This document shows positions 574-57,803 of a DNA stretch of 64,000 nucleotides, in pieces (position 1 is the first letter of the stretch; each line of letters opens with the position of its first letter). A program made the translations under genes and the position numbers. The notes under the pieces were generated by a model. That model was not told the origin of the DNA and made no database searches. It saw nothing but the letters and a program-made list of their open reading frames with translations. This DNA is from Aquimarina spinulae. Lineage in GTDB: Bacteria; Bacteroidota; Bacteroidia; Flavobacteriales; Flavobacteriaceae. The stretch covers positions 558,001-622,000 of the forward strand of contig NZ_CALSBP010000001.1 in NCBI RefSeq assembly GCF_943373825.1, given 5' to 3'.

Positions 574-2670
574 ATGAAACGTATATTAACAATCGCCATT
601 GCCTTTTTTACGGTAATGAGCTTTGCACAAACTCAACCACAAAAACCCAGTGAACTAGTAGCCCAGCAAAAATCATCGGGCTCAAATTTTGAAAACACCG
701 AACTTTTTACCGCAACTGCTAAAAAAAGTAATTTACAAATTCCGAAACAACTTAAGGACTATGTATTGCTTTCTTTAGATCAAAGTAAGATGAAATCTTT
801 ACAAGGTAATTTCCCGAATACGATGAACTTAAGTATTCCGGGGCAGAAAGCAGCAATGTCACTAGACCTTGTTAAAGTAAGCATTAGAACAGACGATTTT
901 TCGGCTATAGACATGCCTTCGGGCAAGATGCTTTCTCGTGATAACATAGCGCACTATCGTGGTGTAGTAAAAGGCCAGTCTAACTCTCTGGTAGCTCTAA
1001 GTTTTTATGAAGATAAGGTATCTGGTTTTATTAGTATCGATGGTCAGAACGGTAATTTGGTAGTTGGACCAGTGAAAAATAGTAAGAGCCATATCCTCTA
1101 TAAAGATAAGGAAATTAGTTATTTATATGATTTTTCTTGCCAGGTAGAAGATGATATAGAAAAAGGAGGATACACTATTGAAGAATTAGCTGATAACCCA
1201 CAAAGTAAAGCAGCTGCAAAATGTGTAAAAATATTCTTTGATATATGTACAGATATTGTAAGTGATAAGGGAGGCGCTCAGGCAGCTTCTAATTATATCG
1301 AAGCTGTATTTAATCAAGTAGCAGCGCTATATGCCAATGATCAGATTTCTCTTAAATTATCGGGTACCAAAGCCTGGACCTCTAATCAGCCTTTTAGCAA
1401 TAACAGTCTGGATAGCTATATCAGCTATAAAAACCAAAATGGTCTTAATGGAGATTTAGGTCATATGGTAAATTATAGTTTTGGAGGAGGACTAGCCGGA
1501 GGAATCGGAACACTGTGTAACTCATCAAGAAAAGCTGCAGTTTCTGGTATCAAAGGTAGCTATCAAAATATACCTACCTATTCTTTTGATGTATTCTTAA
1601 TATCTCATGAGGTAGGACATAATGTAGGATCACGACATACACATGCATGTGTATGGAATGGTAATAATACTGCAATAGATGGTTGTGCCGGTAGAACAGA
1701 AGGAAACTGTGCATTACCAGGAAACCCTGCCGGAGGAGGAACTATCATGAGTTATTGTCCGCAAACCAGTGTTGGAGTAAATTTCAATAAAGGATTTGGT
1801 TCACAACCTGCTAATGTAATCCGCAATTATATTGCAGGATCAAGTTGTTTACAATCTTGTGATGGTGGTGGATGTAATACAGGAGATGCTATATCGGTAA
1901 CATTTACCAATAATACAGATTGTACCTTACAGTATTTCCAGAACAATTCTTTACAGGGATCTGCCAATGCCGGAGGTTCATATAATGCAAATACTACAGT
2001 AGGAAGTGCATGGCAAGCCAAAAAAGCTTCGGGAGGAGACACAGTAGATAACTTTACAATGACTTGTGGTCAAACTACCTATAATTCTTCAGGAAATTGT
2101 AGTAGTGGCGGTGGTAATTGTGATGGTGTAGCGCCTTGGTCTCCAAATGTTAACTATAATGTTGGTGATCGGGTAACCTATAATGGATCTTTGTATGAAA
2201 GAACCGCTACAGGATGGACTAATTTAGGACCATGTACTACAACAACCGATCCTTGTGCAGGAGTAGCACCATATTCTTCTGGTACTGTATATAATGTGGG
2301 TGACCGTGTGACGTATAATGGGTATCTATATGAAAGAACCGCTACAGGATGGACCAACTTAGGTGCTTGTGGAGGATCATTTAGTTCTGCTTTCAAAGGA
2401 GATGGACCAGCAGGAGGATTGCAATTAAAAGCATTCCCTAATCCAGCAAAAGATCTTTTAAATCTTGAAATTAGTAATGCGAAATCTTCTTCTCAAATCA
2501 GTATCAAGGATATAAACGGAAGAACATTAGAAATCTTAGATCTTAAAACGCCTCCGGGAGGAAATGTAGTAAGAAAAACAGTAGATATTAGTAAGTTATC
2601 TACGGGTATCTATTTTGTACAAGTTACTACCGATAGTAAAACACTTACTCAAAAGATTTTTGTAAAATAA
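574..2670 (+). CDS. Secreted metzincin zinc metalloprotease with two CBM-like modules and T9SS sorting domain
   Basis: A 698-residue exported protease. A signal peptide (MKRILTIAIAFFTVMSFAQ) is followed by a propeptide-like region of about 200 residues. The catalytic domain has the extended zinc motif HEVGHNVGSRH (H345, E346, H349, H355) and a downstream Met-turn (M392 in IMSYC), the hallmark of metzincins of the reprolysin/M12B type. Two near-identical 39-residue modules at about 516-554 and 561-599, each with YNVGDRVTYNG and ATGWTNLG, resemble carbohydrate-binding family 5/12 (chitin-binding) folds. Residues 616-698 form a type IX secretion C-terminal domain (FPNPAKD, then STGIYFVQV and TQKIFVK). 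It is probably released or surface-attached and digests protein in polysaccharide-rich material. A strong terminator follows, so it seems monocistronic. Confidence 0.9.
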   Translation: MKRILTIAIAFFTVMSFAQTQPQKPSELVAQQKSSGSNFENTELFTATAKKSNLQIPKQLKDYVLLSLDQSKMKSLQGNFPNTMNLSIPGQKAAMSLDLVKVSIRTDDFSAIDMPSGKMLSRDNIAHYRGVVKGQSNSLVALSFYEDKVSGFISIDGQNGNLVVGPVKNSKSHILYKDKEISYLYDFSCQVEDDIEKGGYTIEELADNPQSKAAAKCVKIFFDICTDIVSDKGGAQAASNYIEAVFNQVAALYANDQISLKLSGTKAWTSNQPFSNNSLDSYISYKNQNGLNGDLGHMVNYSFGGGLAGGIGTLCNSSRKAAVSGIKGSYQNIPTYSFDVFLISHEVGHNVGSRHTHACVWNGNNTAIDGCAGRTEGNCALPGNPAGGGTIMSYCPQTSVGVNFNKGFGSQPANVIRNYIAGSSCLQSCDGGGCNTGDAISVTFTNNTDCTLQYFQNNSLQGSANAGGSYNANTTVGSAWQAKKASGGDTVDNFTMTCGQTTYNSSGNCSSGGGNCDGVAPWSPNVNYNVGDRVTYNGSLYERTATGWTNLGPCTTTTDPCAGVAPYSSGTVYNVGDRVTYNGYLYERTATGWTNLGACGGSFSSAFKGDGPAGGLQLKAFPNPAKDLLNLEISNAKSSSQISIKDINGRTLEILDLKTPPGGNVVRKTVDISKLSTGIYFVQVTTDSKTLTQKIFVK

Positions 2671-2705
2671 TTTTTTTAACAGTAATAAAATTGGCCCTAA
2701 TTAAA

Positions 2706-2733
2706 GGCTGCCCGTACGGGCAGCCTTTTTTTT
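2706..2733 (+). terminator. Rho-independent terminator of the metalloprotease gene
   Basis: A perfect 20-nt palindrome, GGCTGCCCGTACGGGCAGCC, is followed directly by eight T residues. It lies 36 bp after the stop codon of the metalloprotease gene and is unusually GC-rich for this DNA. Confidence 0.95.
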
Positions 2734-2930
2734 GTGATCTATTTACCGAGAAATAATATGATAATAAGAATAATTATAAAATATCCCTGAAAAACGGGTA
2801 GTGATAAACATAAAAAACAGATAGGTTTGTTGATAATTATTATAATGATAATAGAGATCTAGATAAACGAGTTCTGTACATTCATAACATTGAGTTGCAA
2901 CTATGATCGCTAGATGTGAAAGATGTAGAA

Positions 2931-3554
2931 ATGAGTTGGAAAAAAATAGCAAAAGTTACAAGTCTTTTAATAGTGCTATCTGTATTAAATAGTTGTAGGG
3001 TGCCTTGTAATATTATTATAAAAAAGTATTTTTTTACAGAAAGCGGAGCAGTAAGACCGGCTAAAAATAAATTTAAGCTAGGGCAAAATCCTTATTACCT
3101 TAAAGAGAGTGATCATATTAAAACAGATTGTGTATATCAATCTTGCTACAGATCCTATAACAGCGATGAAAAAATATATTTGGATTGTAATAATACAAAC
3201 GAAGGCATTACTTTTCTTCGATTTTTTAAAAACGGTAGGTTCTTGATGACGTATTTGTCACCAACAGAAAGAAATCTTGAACATTATAATGATTTGAAAA
3301 TTGGGTATGTTGGCTACTATAAGATAGAAGATGGAATTCTGTTCTTAGAATATTTTTCGGTAAATCGTTATGGAATGGCAGCTGATTGCGGAAGTTTTGA
3401 TCAGTTTAGGTGTGAAATACATGAAAATTCAATATCATCATTTTCAGTAGGAGTTACTAATGACGATGAGTCGTACGACAGGAAAAACACACTTACTAAC
3501 AATTCGTATGTAAAAGTAAAAGTTGAAGGGTTAACAGGAACTCCAGATTGGTGA
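2931..3554 (+). CDS. Putative lipoprotein of unknown function
   Basis: About 207 residues from the ATG at 2931. A GTG five codons upstream would also open the frame, but the ATG places the signal peptide (MSWKKIAKVTSLLIVLSVLNSC) at the very N-terminus. The LNSC lipobox predicts lipidation. The mature part is rich in Tyr, Asn and Asp, has several cysteines (CVYQSC, CNN, CGSFDQFRC), and reads like a small beta-sandwich. I do not recognise a family. The gene stands alone between a terminator and a TPR protein gene. Confidence 0.75.
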   Translation: MSWKKIAKVTSLLIVLSVLNSCRVPCNIIIKKYFFTESGAVRPAKNKFKLGQNPYYLKESDHIKTDCVYQSCYRSYNSDEKIYLDCNNTNEGITFLRFFKNGRFLMTYLSPTERNLEHYNDLKIGYVGYYKIEDGILFLEYFSVNRYGMAADCGSFDQFRCEIHENSISSFSVGVTNDDESYDRKNTLTNNSYVKVKVEGLTGTPDW

Positions 3555-34332: not shown

Positions 34333-34908
34333 CTACCAATTATCCCGGGATTTTATATTCGCTTCACAGAATTTAATAATTTTTACAATACGTTTATCAC
34401 GGGTTTCCTGTCGTTTGGCTTGATTAATCCAGTAGAGGTAACTTTTACGGTAGCTTTGTGCAAAGTTTTGATAGTTTTCAAAAGCTAAAGGATTTTGATC
34501 AAAGGCATGTTGTAAATCTTTGGGAATGATCCCATTTTCTACATCATCAAGAGCAATCCATGAACCATTATTTTTAGCTATTTCGATACTTACCAAACCA
34601 CTTTGATGCATCAAATCATTTTTAATAAGATCTATGATGTAGGTTTTATTGACTTTGCTCCAAACACTTTTGGGCTTACGAGGGCAGAAATATTGCCTGC
34701 GACGCTGATCATCTAGCCTTTTTACGGTAGAATCTATCCAACCATAACATAATGCTACTTTTACAGCTTCTTCCCACCGCATACTTGGTTGTTTGCTTTC
34801 TACTTTATAAAGTATAAGATATACTCCCTGAGATTGGTGGTGATTTTTATGAAGCCAGGAACGCCATTCCTGATCATTTTTAAAGTATAATTCGGGTTTG
34901 TCAGACAT
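34333..34908 (-). CDS. YdeI/OmpD-associated family protein
   Basis: About 191 residues from the ATG at 34908 (MSDKPELYFKNDQEWRSWL); the open frame runs further upstream but would pass through a hairpin. The motifs RWEEAVKVALCYGWIDS and RRRQYFCPRKPKSVWSKVN are typical for YdeI/OmpD-associated (bacteriocin-protection-like) proteins, and the end matches the helical PF13376-type tail. In Enterobacteria the family is linked to stress and peptide resistance; the mechanism is unknown. The gene is transcribed alone, divergent from the ABC-F gene. Confidence 0.8.
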   Translation of the reverse strand: MSDKPELYFKNDQEWRSWLHKNHHQSQGVYLILYKVESKQPSMRWEEAVKVALCYGWIDSTVKRLDDQRRRQYFCPRKPKSVWSKVNKTYIIDLIKNDLMHQSGLVSIEIAKNNGSWIALDDVENGIIPKDLQHAFDQNPLAFENYQNFAQSYRKSYLYWINQAKRQETRDKRIVKIIKFCEANIKSRDNW

Positions 34909-34943
34909 AAAAAAAGACCTTGATAAAATTACGTTTTCAAGGT
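34909..34943 (-). promoter_or_regulatory. Terminator-like hairpin directly before the YdeI-like start codon
   Basis: Read on the minus strand: ACCTTGA, a 13-nt loop, TCAAGGT, C, seven T residues, and then the ATG. The stem is only 7 bp, but the position of the T run is that of an intrinsic terminator within the leader. It may attenuate transcription or be a simple leader structure. Confidence 0.45.
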
Positions 34944-34990
34944 AATAATTTTTTGCAATACAATATATATTCAAAATATAATCAGATTCC

Positions 34991-39146: not shown

Positions 39147-39177
39147 TGTATTAAAATTTCCATGTCAGAATGTATAC

Positions 39178-39193
39178 TGACATAGGGTTGTCA
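39178..39193 (+). promoter_or_regulatory. Inverted-repeat operator TGACATAGGGTTGTCA upstream of the VOC gene
   Basis: TGACA and TGTCA arms flank TAGGGT. The identical 16 bp occur at 42238, and in both places a -7-like box (here TACTTTTA at 39205) lies at the same distance, 24 bp from the C of the first arm. An extra TGTCA half-site is at 39163. It is probably bound by one regulator that controls both loci. Confidence 0.7.
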
Positions 39194-39235
39194 TTCCTCT
39201 ACTTTACTTTTACTTCAAAATAAATAGAAGTAGAA

Positions 39236-39577
39236 ATGAAGAATAATAAAATCAACTTTATAGAATTACAAGCATTAGATTTAAATGAAATCAAAAAATT
39301 CTATGGCAACACTTTTGGTTGGACTTTTACAGATTATGGAGATCAGTATTGTGACTTCCACCAAGCGGGAATTGATGGAGGATTTGCCAAAGTAGAAAAA
39401 ATTAGTACAGGAGGTACTCTAGTCGTTTTATATCATAATGACTTATCACATGCTTTAGAAAATGTGCAAAAAAATGGTGGAAAAATATCTAAGGAAGTAT
39501 TTTCCTTTCCTGGAGGAAGTCGATTTGAATTTATTGACCCTAGCGGAAATAAACTAGCAGTTTGGACTGATAAGTAA
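39236..39577 (+). CDS. VOC (glyoxalase/bleomycin-resistance fold) protein
   Basis: 113 residues, about one VOC module: two beta-alpha-beta-beta-beta units with FYGNTFGWTFTDYG, a His in YCDFHQAG and the closing IDPSGNKLAVW. Metal-dependent isomerases or small-molecule-binding proteins of this size act as dimers. The substrate is unknown. It is followed 22 bp later by the azoreductase-like gene, and both probably come from the promoter with the 39178 operator, which suggests a chemical-stress response. Confidence 0.85.
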   Translation: MKNNKINFIELQALDLNEIKKFYGNTFGWTFTDYGDQYCDFHQAGIDGGFAKVEKISTGGTLVVLYHNDLSHALENVQKNGGKISKEVFSFPGGSRFEFIDPSGNKLAVWTDK

Positions 39578-39599
39578 ACATGATATAAAAAAATATACA

Positions 39600-40205
39600 A
39601 TGAAAAAAACATTAGTAGTAAGCTACGCGCCAAGAAAGGGATCTTATACAAAGCAATTGGTGGATGAATTTATTAAACTAGCCGATGGTAAAACAGAAAT
39701 TACATTTTTAGATTTAGTAGCTTCACCACCAGATTTATTGCTTGATGATAATCTAAATTTAATCCTTTATGGAGGGCAACCAGAATATACAGCTGAAGAA
39801 AAGAAAAGACTTTCTAATCATTTTCAATTAATCCAACAGGTATTAGATGCAGATCATATTGTATTGGCTTCTCCTATGTATAATTTCTCTTTACCAGCTA
39901 CAGTAAAAGCCTGGGTAGATACTGTAGTAGTTACTGATAAAACATTTGAAATTACCGAAGATGGTAGTTTTAAAGGGCTTTGTGAAGGAAAAAAAGCATT
40001 AATATTAGCAGTGGCTGGGGGAGATTACTCAGAAGAAACAGTCCAGGAATATTTTTCTCCAACTATTAAAAGGAATTTTGAATTTATCGGGATTCCTTCT
40101 GAGCAAATTTCTGCTTTTGGAGTAGCTCAATATCCAGAAAAAGTAGATGCCATTATTTCAAACGCAAAAGTTGAAATTTCGAAAGTAGTAGAGCAGTGGT
40201 ATTAA
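39600..40205 (+). CDS. FMN-dependent NAD(P)H oxidoreductase (azoreductase/AcpD-like flavodoxin fold)
   Basis: 201 residues. The N-terminal strand-loop LVVSYAPRKGSYTKQLVDEF binds the FMN phosphate, and ASPMYNFSLPATVKAWVDTVV is the typical second flavin loop of FMN-dependent NADH azoreductases. ALILAVAGGDYSEE fits the third. It reduces quinones or azo compounds and probably protects from electrophiles together with the VOC protein gene 22 bp upstream. It is followed by a strong hairpin at the M16 start. Confidence 0.87.
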   Translation: MKKTLVVSYAPRKGSYTKQLVDEFIKLADGKTEITFLDLVASPPDLLLDDNLNLILYGGQPEYTAEEKKRLSNHFQLIQQVLDADHIVLASPMYNFSLPATVKAWVDTVVVTDKTFEITEDGSFKGLCEGKKALILAVAGGDYSEETVQEYFSPTIKRNFEFIGIPSEQISAFGVAQYPEKVDAIISNAKVEISKVVEQWY

Positions 40206-40226
40206 ACCACTATCTGGCTTAGTGTA

Positions 40227-40272
40227 ACATAATTGAAAGTTTTTAATCTATATATAAAACTTTCAATTATGT
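40227..40272 (+). promoter_or_regulatory. Perfect 17-bp hairpin that includes the M16 start codon
   Basis: ACATAATTGAAAGTTTT (40227-40243) is exactly complementary to AAAACTTTCAATTATGT (40256-40272), with a 12-nt loop. The ATG at 40269 is in the 3' arm. There is no T run after it, so termination alone does not explain it. Confidence 0.75.
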
Positions 40273-41606
40273 CAAGAAAACAATCCAAAGCATTTTTTTG
40301 TGCATTGCTTTTTCATATTGTGACTGCCTTAAGTTCATATGGTCAGACAGATACACTGTTATTAAACTACGAACAGTATACATTAAAAAACGGGCTTGAT
40401 GTTGTATTACAACCCGATTCTAATGTCGAAGATGTTTCTGTAGAATTTTGGCTTCGCAAGGGAATTAGTATGGATAGACCCAATCAGTATGGTTTTGCTC
40501 ATTTTTTTGAACATGTGATGCCTTTTGGTATAATGGATAGCCTTAAACGTGCGCAATTGAAAACCTATCGAACAGGGAGCAATGCTCAGGTTAAGAAGGA
40601 TTATACTCGTTTTTATGTAAAAGTAAAGCCAAAAGGCTTAGGCCTTGCTTTAGCAATGACAGCTGGACGATTAAAAGCAGGCACAGGTCGTATTACAGAA
40701 AAACGAGTAGAATTTCAAAGAAAAAGAGTACTGTCTGAAATTGATAGAAATGCCAGAAACCCACAATGGAGCGCACCAGGAGGAATGGCGATTTATACAG
40801 GTACCTTTGGTAAAAACCATCCTTATGGTAGTAGTGGGTATGGGTTAATCGAAAATAACAAGAACTTCAAATTAAAAGAATTTAAAGAACGATATAACAA
40901 AATTGTATATGCAGATAACACAGTGCTCTTTCTGGTAGGTAATTTTGATGTAGAAGATGCTAAAAAACAAATAGAGACATATTTCAGGAGCCTTCCTTCA
41001 AAAGAAAAAGATCATAAGATCATTAAACCCACAAAGCATGTAGAAGCCAATATAACAATGAAAGCTCCTCATCCCAAAGACACTATACAAACAATGGTGT
41101 TTTCCTGGGCAGTACCCAAATGGGGATCTCGTGATGATGGTACTTTAAAACTTATAGCGAGCATACTCGATATTCGACTTAAAGACAAAAGTCGTTTTCC
41201 AAAATCATTTATAAAAAATACGGTTTCTACAGATATGTATGAGTTTGCAGGACAGTTTGCAATACGTACTACTTTTACTTCTGTAAAAGATAGCACACAA
41301 ATAGAACACCTTGTTTTGGATAAAGTAAACGAATTTATAGAAACTGGAGTTATAGAAGCAGAACTAATAAATGCCAAGCAAGGTGAAATTAGTGACATAA
41401 AAGAAATGCAACAACGACTAGGTTTTCAATGGAGTAGGACAGAACTGTTGGGAGAAAGCTTTTTGTTTACAGAAGACCCAGGATTTTATGTTAAGAGACT
41501 CGAAGAGCAATTACAACTAACCAGGGAGGATGTGAAAAAAGGAGCAGAAAAATGGCTAAAGCGAAAACCGTTTAGAGTATTATTTGTTTCAGACAAAAAG
41601 GAATAA
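40269..41606 (+). CDS. M16 family zinc metallopeptidase, exported
   Basis: About 445 residues from the ATG at 40269, which gives the signal peptide (MSRKQSKAFFCALLFHIVTALSSYGQ); an upstream TTG at 40233 is unlikely. The inverted zinc motif is H78-F-F-E81-H82, and the third ligand E157 (VLSEIDR) lies 75 residues later, exactly the M16 spacing. A second, non-catalytic M16 half (about 230-430) follows. It is a single-length processing-protease-like enzyme in the periplasm. Translation may be restrained by the hairpin that holds its start codon. Confidence 0.9.
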   Translation: MSRKQSKAFFCALLFHIVTALSSYGQTDTLLLNYEQYTLKNGLDVVLQPDSNVEDVSVEFWLRKGISMDRPNQYGFAHFFEHVMPFGIMDSLKRAQLKTYRTGSNAQVKKDYTRFYVKVKPKGLGLALAMTAGRLKAGTGRITEKRVEFQRKRVLSEIDRNARNPQWSAPGGMAIYTGTFGKNHPYGSSGYGLIENNKNFKLKEFKERYNKIVYADNTVLFLVGNFDVEDAKKQIETYFRSLPSKEKDHKIIKPTKHVEANITMKAPHPKDTIQTMVFSWAVPKWGSRDDGTLKLIASILDIRLKDKSRFPKSFIKNTVSTDMYEFAGQFAIRTTFTSVKDSTQIEHLVLDKVNEFIETGVIEAELINAKQGEISDIKEMQQRLGFQWSRTELLGESFLFTEDPGFYVKRLEEQLQLTREDVKKGAEKWLKRKPFRVLFVSDKKE

Positions 41607-41658
41607 GTACTTTTTATGAATTCGATAGCATCTTGTTTCAGTATTTTAGCGGTGTAGT

Positions 41659-42213
41659 ATGTACAATACAAAAGAAATGCTAATACAAAACTATCAACCC
41701 GGTTGGATTCATGATTTTAATAGTATTAAAGAAGTGATTAAAGAGGCGCTTCGGAATACAGAAATTACTATCGAACATGTTGGCAGTACTGCAGTTAAAG
41801 ACTTAGCGGCAAAACCTATTATTGATATCGATATTGTCTACGGTAAAAACGTGGCTTTTGAAACAATACAAAGAGGATTAGAAGAACTGGGGTATTATCA
41901 CAATGGAGATCAGGGAATAAAAGAAAGAGAAGCTTTTAAGCGAAAAAAAACAGATACCAAGCATACCATATTAGATTTTATCACACATCACCTTTATGTT
42001 TGTCCGCTTCATAGTAAAGAATTACAAAGACATTTAATGTTCAGGGATTATTTGATAAAGAATGCAAACGAAAGAGAAGCATACCAAAAAATTAAACTCG
42101 AAATAGCCAAAAAAGCAAACCAAGATCAAAAAGTATATGCCAAATTGAAGGAGACTATGGCAAAGGAGTTTATTGAATCTGTTCTTAAAAAAGCTAGAGA
42201 AGAGAATACATAA
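41659..42213 (+). CDS. GrpB/UPF0157 nucleotidyltransferase-like protein
   Basis: 184 residues. The signature IEHVGSTAVKDLAAKPIIDIDIV is that of the GrpB family, a nucleotidyltransferase-fold domain with the GS and DxD residues. The His-rich HHLYVCPLHSKE also fits. Its substrate has not been established. The gene begins 52 bp after the M16 gene and ends 24 bp before the shared operator of the GyrI-like gene. Confidence 0.85.
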   Translation: MYNTKEMLIQNYQPGWIHDFNSIKEVIKEALRNTEITIEHVGSTAVKDLAAKPIIDIDIVYGKNVAFETIQRGLEELGYYHNGDQGIKEREAFKRKKTDTKHTILDFITHHLYVCPLHSKELQRHLMFRDYLIKNANEREAYQKIKLEIAKKANQDQKVYAKLKETMAKEFIESVLKKAREENT

Positions 42214-42237
42214 AATACGATAATATATAAATACTGT

Positions 42238-42253
42238 TGACATAGGGTTGTCA
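42238..42253 (+). promoter_or_regulatory. Second copy of the TGACATAGGGTTGTCA operator, before the GyrI-like gene
   Basis: Identical to the site at 39178. The -7-like box TATTTTTG (42265-42272) fits TAnnTTTG exactly and has the same 24-bp offset. The TTG of the right arm lies near the -33 position, so the bound protein would contact or cover the promoter. Confidence 0.75.
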
Positions 42254-42341
42254 TCATTGTATTTTATTTTTGTTTTATACGATTAGAAAACTGTTGGTTA
42301 CGGTTAGTTTAATTTGTAAATCGTATACTAAAAGAGAGTAC

Positions 42342-42977
42342 ATGATGAAGCACGAATGGAGAAAAAAAGAAAAAGGAGTGTATATACCCAAAAACACCCC
42401 CGAAATTATTAAAATTCCCGAATATAATTTTCTTACTATCGAGGGAGAAGGCAATCCTAATAATGAATTCTTTTCAGAGTATATTGGTATACTGTATGCG
42501 ATTTCATACGCGATAAAAATGGGATTAAAAAAACAAGAAACTATACCCAAAGGATATTTTGATTATACAGTTTATCCGTTAGAAGGGATTTGGGATATTA
42601 ATGAAGCAGCAAAGGTTACATACAAAGGTACTATTGATAAAGATGACCTGGTTTTTAAATTAATGATCAGGCAACCCAACTTTGTTGATGATGAATTAGC
42701 GAAATACATGATTGATCAAACCAAAAAAAAGAAACCTCATGTATTATTAGAAAAAGTAAGATTTGAGAAGATAACAGAAGGCAAGTGTATACAAATGATG
42801 CATTTGGGAAGTTATGACAATGAACCTGAAAGTTTTAAGGTGATGGAAGAATTTGCTGAAAAAGAACATCTCTACAGACCTTCTAAAGTACATAGAGAAA
42901 TTTACCTATCTGATTTTAGAAAAGTACCCGCCGAAAAGTTAAAAACAGTTTTACGGTTTAAAGTAGTTTCAAAGTAA
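42342..42977 (+). CDS. GyrI-like small-molecule-binding protein
   Basis: About 211 residues. The track opens at a TTG inside the promoter box; the ATG at 42342 with AAAGAGAG upstream is the better start (MMKHEWRKKEKGVYIPK). The fold matches GyrI/AraC-effector-binding proteins (LTIEGEGNPNNEFFSEYIG, then GKCIQMMHLGSY). Such stand-alone domains bind small molecules or inhibit proteins. It shares an operator with the VOC/azoreductase pair, so it is probably part of the same stress regulon. Confidence 0.85.
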   Translation: MMKHEWRKKEKGVYIPKNTPEIIKIPEYNFLTIEGEGNPNNEFFSEYIGILYAISYAIKMGLKKQETIPKGYFDYTVYPLEGIWDINEAAKVTYKGTIDKDDLVFKLMIRQPNFVDDELAKYMIDQTKKKKPHVLLEKVRFEKITEGKCIQMMHLGSYDNEPESFKVMEEFAEKEHLYRPSKVHREIYLSDFRKVPAEKLKTVLRFKVVSK

Positions 42978-43977: not shown

Positions 43978-44010
43978 GTTTCGACAGGTCTGCTCTGAGC
44001 TTGTCAAAAC
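43978..44010. repeat. Imperfect inverted repeat, possibly a dispersed intergenic element
   Basis: GTTTCGACAGG pairs with CTTGTCAAAAC over 11 bp with two wobble positions and an 11-nt loop. The sequence (TCGACAGGtctgctctgagc) resembles the CTCAG/TCGACA-type elements scattered between genes in Flavobacteria. The rest of the 292-bp gap (43804-44095) shows no gene. Confidence 0.5.
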
Positions 44011-47419: not shown

Positions 47420-48193
47420 TTATTTTAAAATTTTGCTCATTACTTTATCATATCGTGTGTCCATACAAACACTAATATCTGTTGTCATAAATTTCCCATT
47501 ATAGAAAAGGCTAAAAATGGTTGCCGGACTTGGAGCAGATTGAGCCTGTTTCATGGTTTCTAATTTAATTATTTTTAATGGAATTTTTCTTTTTTTTGCA
47601 GTTTCGATCAGAGAGTTTTTTGCGTGAAACTCTGCAAAAGGGCAACGATTAGAATAATAAACTACAATTCCATTTTTTTCAGAACATTCTCCGCTTTTTA
47701 CAGATTCATTAAATTTTGGCAATTCGGCTTTCGGATTTATTTTTTTTGCTAAAAGACTAAATCCACTCGAAATTCTTTCAATCTCCTCAAACCCTTGCTT
47801 TAGAAACCATTTTGTATCACTCATAAAATGAAACTTCTTAGTACCTACAACGGTGACTAACCCATCTTTTCCTTGACTCTTGGCGTCGTCAATTGCTGTT
47901 TTTAAGAGTTCTTTTCCATATCCATTCTTTTTGAATTTTCCAGACACCCAAAAGCAATTAATATTCAGGTAATTAGATGCTTTAATTGGAATCCAGGCAT
48001 TTTCTGCGGGGCCGTATTCTATAAATACTTTCGCTCTTTCATTAATTCGCCTAAATACATATCCGTTATTGAATTCTTTAGTCAACCAATCTTTTTTGGC
48101 CTGATAACTATCAGAACATTTCTTATCAGATATTGCGCAGCAAATATGCTCTGTCGATATGTTTTCTGTATTTAAATCGATTAACTGTTCCAT
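47420..48193 (-). CDS. GNAT acetyltransferase with YoaP-like C-terminal domain
   Basis: 257 residues. The N-terminal half (about 20-150) is a GNAT fold with the CoA-binding loop NGYGKELLKTAIDDAK. The C-terminal part, IVVYYSNRCPFAEFHAKNSLIETAKKR, resembles the thioredoxin-like YoaP domain with a CPFA motif. The fusion is known in Firmicutes and Bacteroidota; the acceptor is not known. Monocistronic. Confidence 0.85.
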   Translation of the reverse strand: MEQLIDLNTENISTEHICCAISDKKCSDSYQAKKDWLTKEFNNGYVFRRINERAKVFIEYGPAENAWIPIKASNYLNINCFWVSGKFKKNGYGKELLKTAIDDAKSQGKDGLVTVVGTKKFHFMSDTKWFLKQGFEEIERISSGFSLLAKKINPKAELPKFNESVKSGECSEKNGIVVYYSNRCPFAEFHAKNSLIETAKKRKIPLKIIKLETMKQAQSAPSPATIFSLFYNGKFMTTDISVCMDTRYDKVMSKILK

Positions 48194-57206: not shown

Positions 57207-57803
57207 TTAATTTTTAGGGAATTTTTTATCGTTTTTTATCTCTTTAATTTGCGCAATATGGCGACCGGTATGTGAAGACATGTAGAGAAAAACCTGGTAA
57301 AGATCGATGCTTCCAAAGTTGGCAAAATGGTTTCTTAAGTCATCTTCTGTTGTCTTTATATAATTGATGTGTTGTTCTCTTTTTGCTTTAAATTCTGCAA
57401 TAGTTGCTTTGTGATTACCATACTTTCCTATGGGTTCAAAATCTTCTTGGGTTTTTGTTTTTTCTGCACGATTGTGTACATGTGCTATTAATTCTTTATC
57501 AGTGAATTTTAAGTCTTTCCGCCTTTCGGGATCCGAAGGAAGTTCTAAAGACTCTTTAAGTATTTCAAATACTTCATTTTCTAAAATCGTAATGTGTTCT
57601 GTACATTGTAGTATTGACCAGGACGATTCATTAATTTTAAAATTGAGCTGTGCTTCACTTAATCCATCTAATATGTCTAATAAATTACCTTTAGAGTTAT
57701 TTAATTCGTTGATTGCGAAATCTCGCTCTACTGGTGTCAATTTATTATTAGAAACCGAACAGTTAACTAGTAAAACAAACAGGATCATTAAATTTTTTTT
57801 CAT
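57207..57803 (-). CDS. DinB-family metalloprotein, lipoprotein
   Basis: 198 residues. Lipobox signal (MKKNLMILFVLLVNC). The four-helix DinB fold is seen in SSWSILQCTEHITILENEVFEIL and MSSHTGRHIAQIKEIK; the three histidines (H in TEHIT, H and H in SSHTGRHIAQ) probably bind a divalent metal. Members act as thiol-dependent transferases. An extracytoplasmic location is unusual. Middle gene of the operon. Confidence 0.82.
   Translation of the reverse strand: MKKNLMILFVLLVNCSVSNNKLTPVERDFAINELNNSKGNLLDILDGLSEAQLNFKINESSWSILQCTEHITILENEVFEILKESLELPSDPERRKDLKFTDKELIAHVHNRAEKTKTQEDFEPIGKYGNHKATIAEFKAKREQHINYIKTTEDDLRNHFANFGSIDLYQVFLYMSSHTGRHIAQIKEIKNDKKFPKN

Follow-up and report, generated by a model that had tools for sequence, protein, structure and literature searches.

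A palindromic operator at a fixed distance from the -7 box accompanies genes for HTH-WYL regulators in Aquimarina and other Bacteroidota

Introduction

The described systems closest to the one considered here, an inverted repeat (TGACA-N6-TGTCA) found upstream of two genes in a 64,000-nt stretch of the Aquimarina spinulae genome (contig NZ_CALSBP010000001.1, positions 558,001 to 622,000 of the forward strand; hereafter the window), include transcriptional activators with WYL domains. SiwR of M. smegmatis is reported to be a WYL activator of DinB-superfamily genes, with residues R38 and R42 that are needed in vivo, and its authors raised the question of whether other WYL activators also adapt sigma factors (PMC10693628). 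PafBC is a mycobacterial DNA-damage activator that works by sigma adaptation. LexA-independent promoters of the PafBC type are described by the consensus tTGTCRgtg-8 nt-TannnT (PMC5656591); according to PMC11804915, it is PafB that recognises the -26 motif, with PafC holding on to sigma domain 4, and joint mutation of PafB R181, R204 and R208 abolishes binding of single-stranded DNA (ssDNA), for which Y196 is also needed. DriD, a WYL activator of Caulobacter, is reported to sit on the -35 element, with its distance to the -10 element always the same (PMC12340889). In flavobacteria, the promoter element recognized by sigma-A is reported to be a -7 box, TAnnTTTG, at -12 to -5 (PMC9723704). Searches of one open-access library, with subscription papers mostly outside its scope, listed no publication that deals with this operator or with WYL regulons in Bacteroidota.

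A preliminary description of the window proposed that one dimeric regulator, encoded elsewhere, controls a small detoxification regulon through an identical 16-bp operator at two stress loci. Here we followed this operator through the genome of origin, its genus, family and phylum. Our reading, to which we assign a probability of about 0.7, is that Bacteroidota-wide activators composed of a helix-turn-helix (HTH) and a WYL domain, perhaps triggered by ssDNA, use a composite element in which the operator would lie at -39 to -24.

Results

Within the window, TGACATAGGGTTGTCA occurs in two copies, both on the + strand and with no third, as the preliminary description had it, and the -7-like boxes TACTTTTA and TATTTTTG each start 11 bp past the 16-mer, which is the same as the 24 bp counted there from an inner base (Table 1); allowing three mismatches adds a single match, at 44004, where shuffled sequences lead one to expect 0.50. 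In the whole genome (G000; 6,239,435 bases, 3 contigs) the 16-mer is equally rare, with three exact copies rather than the many random ones that would have spoken against an operator. In the third copy, at C3:343730, the first three bases, TGA, are also the stop codon that ends a gene for a 238-amino-acid (aa) HTH_11 + WYL protein (C3:343016-343732), in line with the expectation that the regulator gene, perhaps of WYL or MarR type, would be found outside the window. The real unit is the composite TGACA-N6-TGTCA-N11-TAnnTTTG, that is, the operator plus the sigma-A -7 box. Six exact composites are present in this genome (none in the reversed-pattern control), and the site at 39178 is an additional one with a single mismatch in the last base of the -7 box. 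Matches to the composite with up to three mismatches (83, against 85 in the control) are pure background, and exact matches were therefore used for genome counts; the 16-mer relaxed to two mismatches is likewise near background (7 matches against 3). Among these two-mismatch matches, C2:1628823 and C2:2883138 proved to be composites, and two were dropped as chance, C2:2578569 within an open reading frame (ORF; L005) and C3:640983 seemingly within an open frame running off its locus.

The genome has exactly three genes with the Pfam WYL domain (PF13280), and each is followed on the same strand by a composite that overlaps the stop codon or lies within 17 nt of it, ahead of the next gene. Two further composites precede other genes (Table 1), and the remaining ones sit ahead of the VOC and GyrI genes of the window; a one-mismatch composite at C3:97999 has no WYL gene nearby.

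Linkage to WYL genes was counted over all 93 WYL matches in 52 genomes of the genus, several of which are closely related. A short kind, defined by a score of at least 60 bits against a model of the three WYL proteins above, comprises 58 of the 93, and in 54 of these 58 a composite starts between -25 and +56 nt relative to the stop codon; 47 of these composites are exact, six have one mismatch and one has two. Two broken short WYL genes (L156, L215) have the composite further away, and two others (L082, L190) lack it. By contrast, no exact composite and no exact palindrome was present in the loci of the other 35 WYL genes, most of them in frames of 308-412 aa, and among the 17 of them that were scored near the stop codon with mismatches allowed, none came under 5; the best matches in interior control windows had 5 mismatches in short WYL genes and 3 in the others. 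The suggestion that a regulator gene would stand beside such sites in relatives was thus borne out.

The distance between operator and -7 box is fixed. Exact palindromes at the stops of short WYL genes, found without reference to the -7 box, have TAnnTTTG at 11 bp in 47 of 47 cases and at no other spacing between 0 and 30. When spacings of 4-20 were allowed in 149 family genomes, 57 of the 67 matches fell at 11 (hand counts), and the control gave 7 matches over all 17 spacings together. A reading of the element as an RNA hairpin or terminator was set aside, with no folding run, because of this constant distance. At two sites (G096:C13:233237-233264 and G090:C13:63614-63641) a second exact TAnnTTTG lies 4 bp off the palindrome on the opposite strand; these double-sided palindromes are possibly divergent promoters.

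Pooling all loci gives 158 distinct WYL proteins, many from loci selected by the motif, so that the following counts are not unbiased rates: the site comes after the WYL gene in 124, is divergent in 22 and is absent in 12. The 22 divergent proteins have 310-362 aa, and 19 of them face a DinB-group protein (for the other 3 no downstream protein was read). In four loci (L067, L128, L305, L080) a composite also faces the WYL gene itself, so that autoregulation is possible for some of the regulators; in L067 and L128 two sites stand back to back, one toward DinB and the other toward the WYL gene.

Searches beyond the genome of origin found the exact composite in 38 of 52 genomes of the genus (90 sites; reversed control 0), 57 of 299 of the family (89 sites; control 1) and 57 of 395 of the phylum (83 sites; control 0), with sites counted by hand and six at most in any genome. 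A narrower composite, TGACAYAGGGYTGTCA, searched in 84,980 species genomes, gave at least 120 loci; among the matches listed, 118 are from Bacteroidota (Flavobacteriia, Cytophagia, Sphingobacteriia, Chitinophagia, Bacteroidia, Saprospiria and 5 unclassed), one from Ignavibacteriota and one from Balneolota, a distribution to be read with the fact that the -7 box inside the pattern itself favours Bacteroidota. The 121 sites among these listed matches comprise 43 after a same-strand WYL gene, 6 divergent from one, 10 whose locus has a WYL gene in some other position and 62 whose locus has none. The last figure could suit an unrelated regulator that binds the palindrome, with WYL adjacency reflecting clusters that travel together; we consider this very improbable, as the site stands at the stop of nearly all short WYL genes and of none of the other 35, and as it persists across gene orders, both after and divergent from WYL genes, even if many of those loci were motif-selected. 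A variant, TGACACTATG[TC]TGTCA, mostly with TAAGTTTG 11 bp on, recurs in several genomes of the phylum search, mainly in family code f24 (e.g., G373:C3:281384 and 283019).

Orthologs of the two targets, sought in the 52 genus genomes with the own genome included, retain the 16-mer, as would be expected of an operator. Among 11 VOC matches, the eight with at least 82% identity all have it exactly, at -58 from the start codon, and all eight have TAnnTTTA instead of TAnnTTTG; the three matches at 51-56% identity have no 16-mer. Of 13 GyrI matches, ten have the exact 16-mer, one has it with 1 mismatch and one with 2, and in one genome (G238, L066) the GyrI ortholog directly follows a WYL gene and the site. 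The three scattered exact copies in the genome might be taken for a chance repeat or a repeat element with no regulatory role, but we give this hardly any credence, since the 16-mer stays constant in orthologs while flanking bases drift, and since reversed controls yielded next to no sites in genus, family and phylum. A further repeat upstream, ATGTCA...TGACAT (39162-39183), was rejected as an element because it is lost in the ortholog flanks compared.

HTH_11 and PF13280 score over the Pfam cut-off in all three regulators of the genome. The stretch S32-x-R34-T35-x-Y37-R38-D39, which we take as the recognition helix (SxRTxYRD), is 98-99% conserved over the 158 WYL proteins. Among solved structures, sequence matches to transcription factors were confined to PafBC entries, the other two matches being AAA ATPases. 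R165, R188 and R192 of the C3 regulator, conserved at 99, 95 and 99% over the same 158 proteins, align with R181, R204 and R208 of chain 7p5x_AY, which is taken to be PafB because this numbering agrees with that of the ssDNA-binding residues; in the same chain, residues 46 and 50 are the counterparts of R34 and R38. The C3 regulator ends 36 aa past its WYL domain, seemingly too short for a WCX domain. Two whole WYL genes stand together in one locus only (L316), and L156, L215 and L332 hold fragments.

Operator cores, classed as GG, CC or other, follow the WYL tree, with 19 changes against a mean of 35.2 and a minimum of 30 in 500 shuffles; the tree (FastTree) has many open branches, and the agreement is partly joint inheritance of neighbouring gene and site and alone is no proof of specificity. 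By core class, the GGG sites of the window most likely pair with the regulator at C3:343016-343732, given that the gene downstream of it carries the identical 16-mer, and C2:912921, with a CC core, would pair with the regulator at C2:1591756. The idea of one regulator thus probably holds for the two window sites with their shared GGG core; the family of sites is larger than had been thought and has several paralogous WYL proteins.

Table 1. Features of the window and of the other composite loci in the same genome
Feature	Location	Strand	Remarks
Operator copy 1, TGACATAGGGTTGTCA	39178..39193	+	exact ahead of 8/8 closely related VOC orthologs of the genus (own genome counted)
-7 box TACTTTTA	39205..39212	+	11 bp past operator 1; last base deviates from TAnnTTTG
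Target 1, VOC/glyoxalase-family protein, 113 aa	39236..39577	+	PF00903, E 7.4e-10
Flavodoxin-fold flavin mononucleotide (FMN)-dependent azoreductase-like protein, 201 aa	39600..40205	+	PF02525, E 5.1e-34
Operator copy 2, TGACATAGGGTTGTCA	42238..42253	+	exact 16-mer before 10/13 GyrI orthologs, own genome counted
-7 box TATTTTTG	42265..42272	+	11 bp past operator 2; composite with zero mismatches
Target 2, stand-alone GyrI-like protein, 210 aa	42345..42977	+	PF06445, E 1.5e-15
WYL gene	C3:343016-343732		composite core TAGGGT; next gene a presumably ABM-like lipoprotein
WYL gene	C2 near 1,628,900		composite core TAATGT; next gene without Pfam match
WYL gene	C2 near 1,591,800		composite core TAACCA; next gene DUF4345
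Non-WYL composite	C2:912921		ahead of Cass2/GyrI-like gene
Non-WYL composite	C2:2883119		ahead of DNA_alkylation/HEAT protein

Pfam matches agree with the identities first given to the targets, a VOC protein with an azoreductase-like enzyme and a GyrI-like protein (Table 1). The azoreductase-like gene is probably the second gene of the VOC transcript; its product matches NCBIfam azoreductase models at E about 1e-18, below cut-off. Target 2, for which ATG at 42342 is an alternative start, is homologous to lin2189 (match to structure 3b49, E 1.1e-41), and with a chain numbering offset of 3, as we infer it, both catalytic glutamates of lin2189, E157 and E185, are kept. Since lin2189 is reported to hydrolyse the alkylators yatakemycin and CC-1065 (PMC5684135), target 2 is, by this homology and the two glutamates, a predicted cyclopropanoid hydrolase. 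Three other window genes, named by resemblance, are of kinds that are composite targets elsewhere (YoaP-like in L273) and have no composite upstream, namely the YdeI/OmdA-like gene at 34333-34974 (-; best 5 mismatches), the YoaP-GNAT-like gene at 47420-48193 (-; best 5) and the DinB-like gene at 57207-57803 (-; best 6).

Taking the next ORF after each site mechanically gave 190 proteins (186 distinct), which, with 3 window proteins added for comparison, fell into 42 groups by single linkage. Not counting the window proteins, the largest are DinB (36), the large GyrI type (20), the small GyrI/Cass2 type (18), ABM-like (16), YdeI/OmdA (15), DUF4345 (12), DUF1761 (7) and VOC (7), and the small ones include SRPBCC (4), RidA (4), BtrH_N (4), AlkZ-like DNA glycosylase (3), alpha/beta hydrolase (3) and DNA_alkylation HEAT (2); these domain names rest on one representative each, with 17 non-WYL representatives scanned against Pfam. 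In the large GyrI type, 15 of 20 match the window GyrI protein directly and 5 are joined through links, some seemingly NTF2-like. The group labels ABM and NTF2 are our own presumptive assignments, as is the ABM-like label of the lipoprotein gene after the C3 WYL gene, whose homologue in L048 has no Pfam match. Somewhat fewer than half of the targets come from families linked to detoxification or to the repair of alkylation damage. The notion of a small detoxification regulon is supported, with the correction that many targets elsewhere are of unknown function. No defence gene was recognised among the downstream target groups, for which no defence library was run. In one family genome, L141 (G224:C120, about 1015-2955, minus strand), a gene named by eye as recA follows a WYL gene and an exact composite, which suggests WYL control of recA there. 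A GGG operator also precedes a BtrH_N/DUF4872 protein in four contigs (L247, L219, L227, L255; of these, L247 alone was run against Pfam), which would be unexpected of a detoxification regulon.

Discussion

We propose that a WYL homodimer would bind the composite and read its TGACA and TGTCA half-sites through the near-invariant helix. Placing the -7 box at -12 to -5 puts the proximal TGTCA of the operator at -28 to -24, where mycobacterial PafB reads its TGTCR motif, and the bound activator would enable the housekeeping sigma factor to initiate at promoters that lack a -33 element. The trigger would be a nucleic-acid ligand in the WYL domain, e.g., ssDNA, and the output would be enzymes that break down reactive compounds able to alkylate DNA, or that mend the damage done by them; the case for this ligand and for a damage signal comes solely from conserved residues and target types.

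Activation is favoured over simple repression because the spacing is fixed. The same WYL proteins might bind the operator and repress, keeping sigma-A from the -33 region for as long as no ligand frees them from the DNA: the operator covers that region, phage-defence WYL regulators are described as transcriptional repressors (PMC10693628), and a TTG spans the right arm in 137 of 250 distinct composites. However, occlusion needs no fixed phase, yet the spacing is 11 at every one of the 47 palindromes at WYL stops, and the WYL protein reported to control DinB-superfamily genes, SiwR, is an activator (PMC10693628). Moreover, no target group looks like a defence gene (again with no defence library run), and none of the 250 composites has a TTG at 17-23 from the -7 box, where only 17-19 are free bases, so that the promoters look weak unaided. 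The missing -33 TTG speaks only slightly for activation, since the pattern by its own letters leaves no room for it at spacings 20-23, and since a -33 motif is not general in flavobacteria; none was reportedly found by RNA-seq in F. johnsoniae (PMC7366714). We therefore regard repression as unlikely, although it is the alternative that we take most seriously.

Several observations weigh against ssDNA-triggered WYL activators acting through this element across the phylum. No exact composite was found in 242 of 299 family and 338 of 395 phylum genomes; one GyrI ortholog (L390; 1 of 13) has no site, and two others (L385, L386) have the exact 16-mer at a spacing of 10 to TAACTTTG. On the side of the proteins, the position of PafB Y196 is an isoleucine (I180) in the C3 regulator, paralogue B likewise has an isoleucine where R195 would stand, most of the short WYL proteins seem to lack the length for a WCX dimer domain of PafBC size, and the recognition-helix residues are common to the three regulators of the genome, so that cross-binding is possible. 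PafBC is a heterodimer with a non-palindromic site, unlike the inverted repeat TGACA-N6-TGTCA that stands beside 47 WYL genes here. Constrained spacing might also be seen with a repressor that lies over -39 to -24. Finally, over half of the downstream proteins lie outside genotoxin-tied families. The spacing of 10 in L385 and L386 is, in its own right, a natural test of the spacing rule.

If WYL activators do act through the composite, it would provide a sequence code that predicts the genes controlled by uncharacterised WYL regulators of Bacteroidota, and it would link the poorly understood families DinB, YdeI, DUF4345, DUF1761 and GyrI-like to one programme. A wider proposal, which we put forward as tentative and rather doubtful, is that docking on TGTCR at -28 to -24, the distance of 11 bp and the retuning of sigma are an ancient mechanism common to Actinobacteria and Bacteroidota, and that Bacteroidota have an unrecognised, LexA-independent, ssDNA-triggered anti-alkylator programme of WYL-operator-gene cassettes, whose members would be GyrI hydrolases, AlkZ-like and AlkD-like repair proteins, DinB, VOC and, in one genome, recA.

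Among known systems, CapW and BrxR share with the regulators described here the HTH-WYL architecture; they are phage-defence repressors, unlike a set in which no defence genes were recognised among target groups (17 representatives scanned against Pfam; no defence library). DriD, as reported, is similar in its position over the -35 and its constant distance to the -10 element; it comes from a different phylum, its RNA polymerase contacts are known there, and it is likened by position and not by operator letters. SiwR, in its published account, is closer, being an HTH-WYL protein with a palindrome near the -10 region, conserved WYL arginines, an HTH arginine pair four apart (R38/R42; R34/R38 here, paired by spacing and not by alignment) and neighbouring targets of the DinB and, in some species, glyoxalase families. 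As described, it differs in being a protein of Actinobacteria with one known regulated operon and a 19-bp imperfect palindrome (set apart by description only), whereas here there is a phylum-wide set with a fixed composite, in which the regulators are mostly shorter and the sites mostly at the 3' end of the regulator gene; the homodimer demonstrated for SiwR is presumed for the Bacteroidota regulators. The divergent DinB arrangement of the SiwR type is seen in 19 of 22 of the divergent subset, while the window's own regulator has a same-strand site. PafBC, as far as it has been described, has WCX domains and about 150 genes, against mostly short proteins and at most six exact sites per genome here. 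What is shared with PafBC is the TGTCR motif, the 11 nt that separate it from the TA of the -10 box in the PafBC consensus, equal to TGTCA-N11-TA of the composite, and the three ssDNA-binding arginines. The arrangement TGTCR-N11-TAnnnT indeed recurs here with a spacing that neither the search at WYL stops nor that in family genomes had imposed and with a TAnnTTTG box that fits TAnnnT, and this match in spacing makes sigma adaptation by other WYL activators testable in another phylum.

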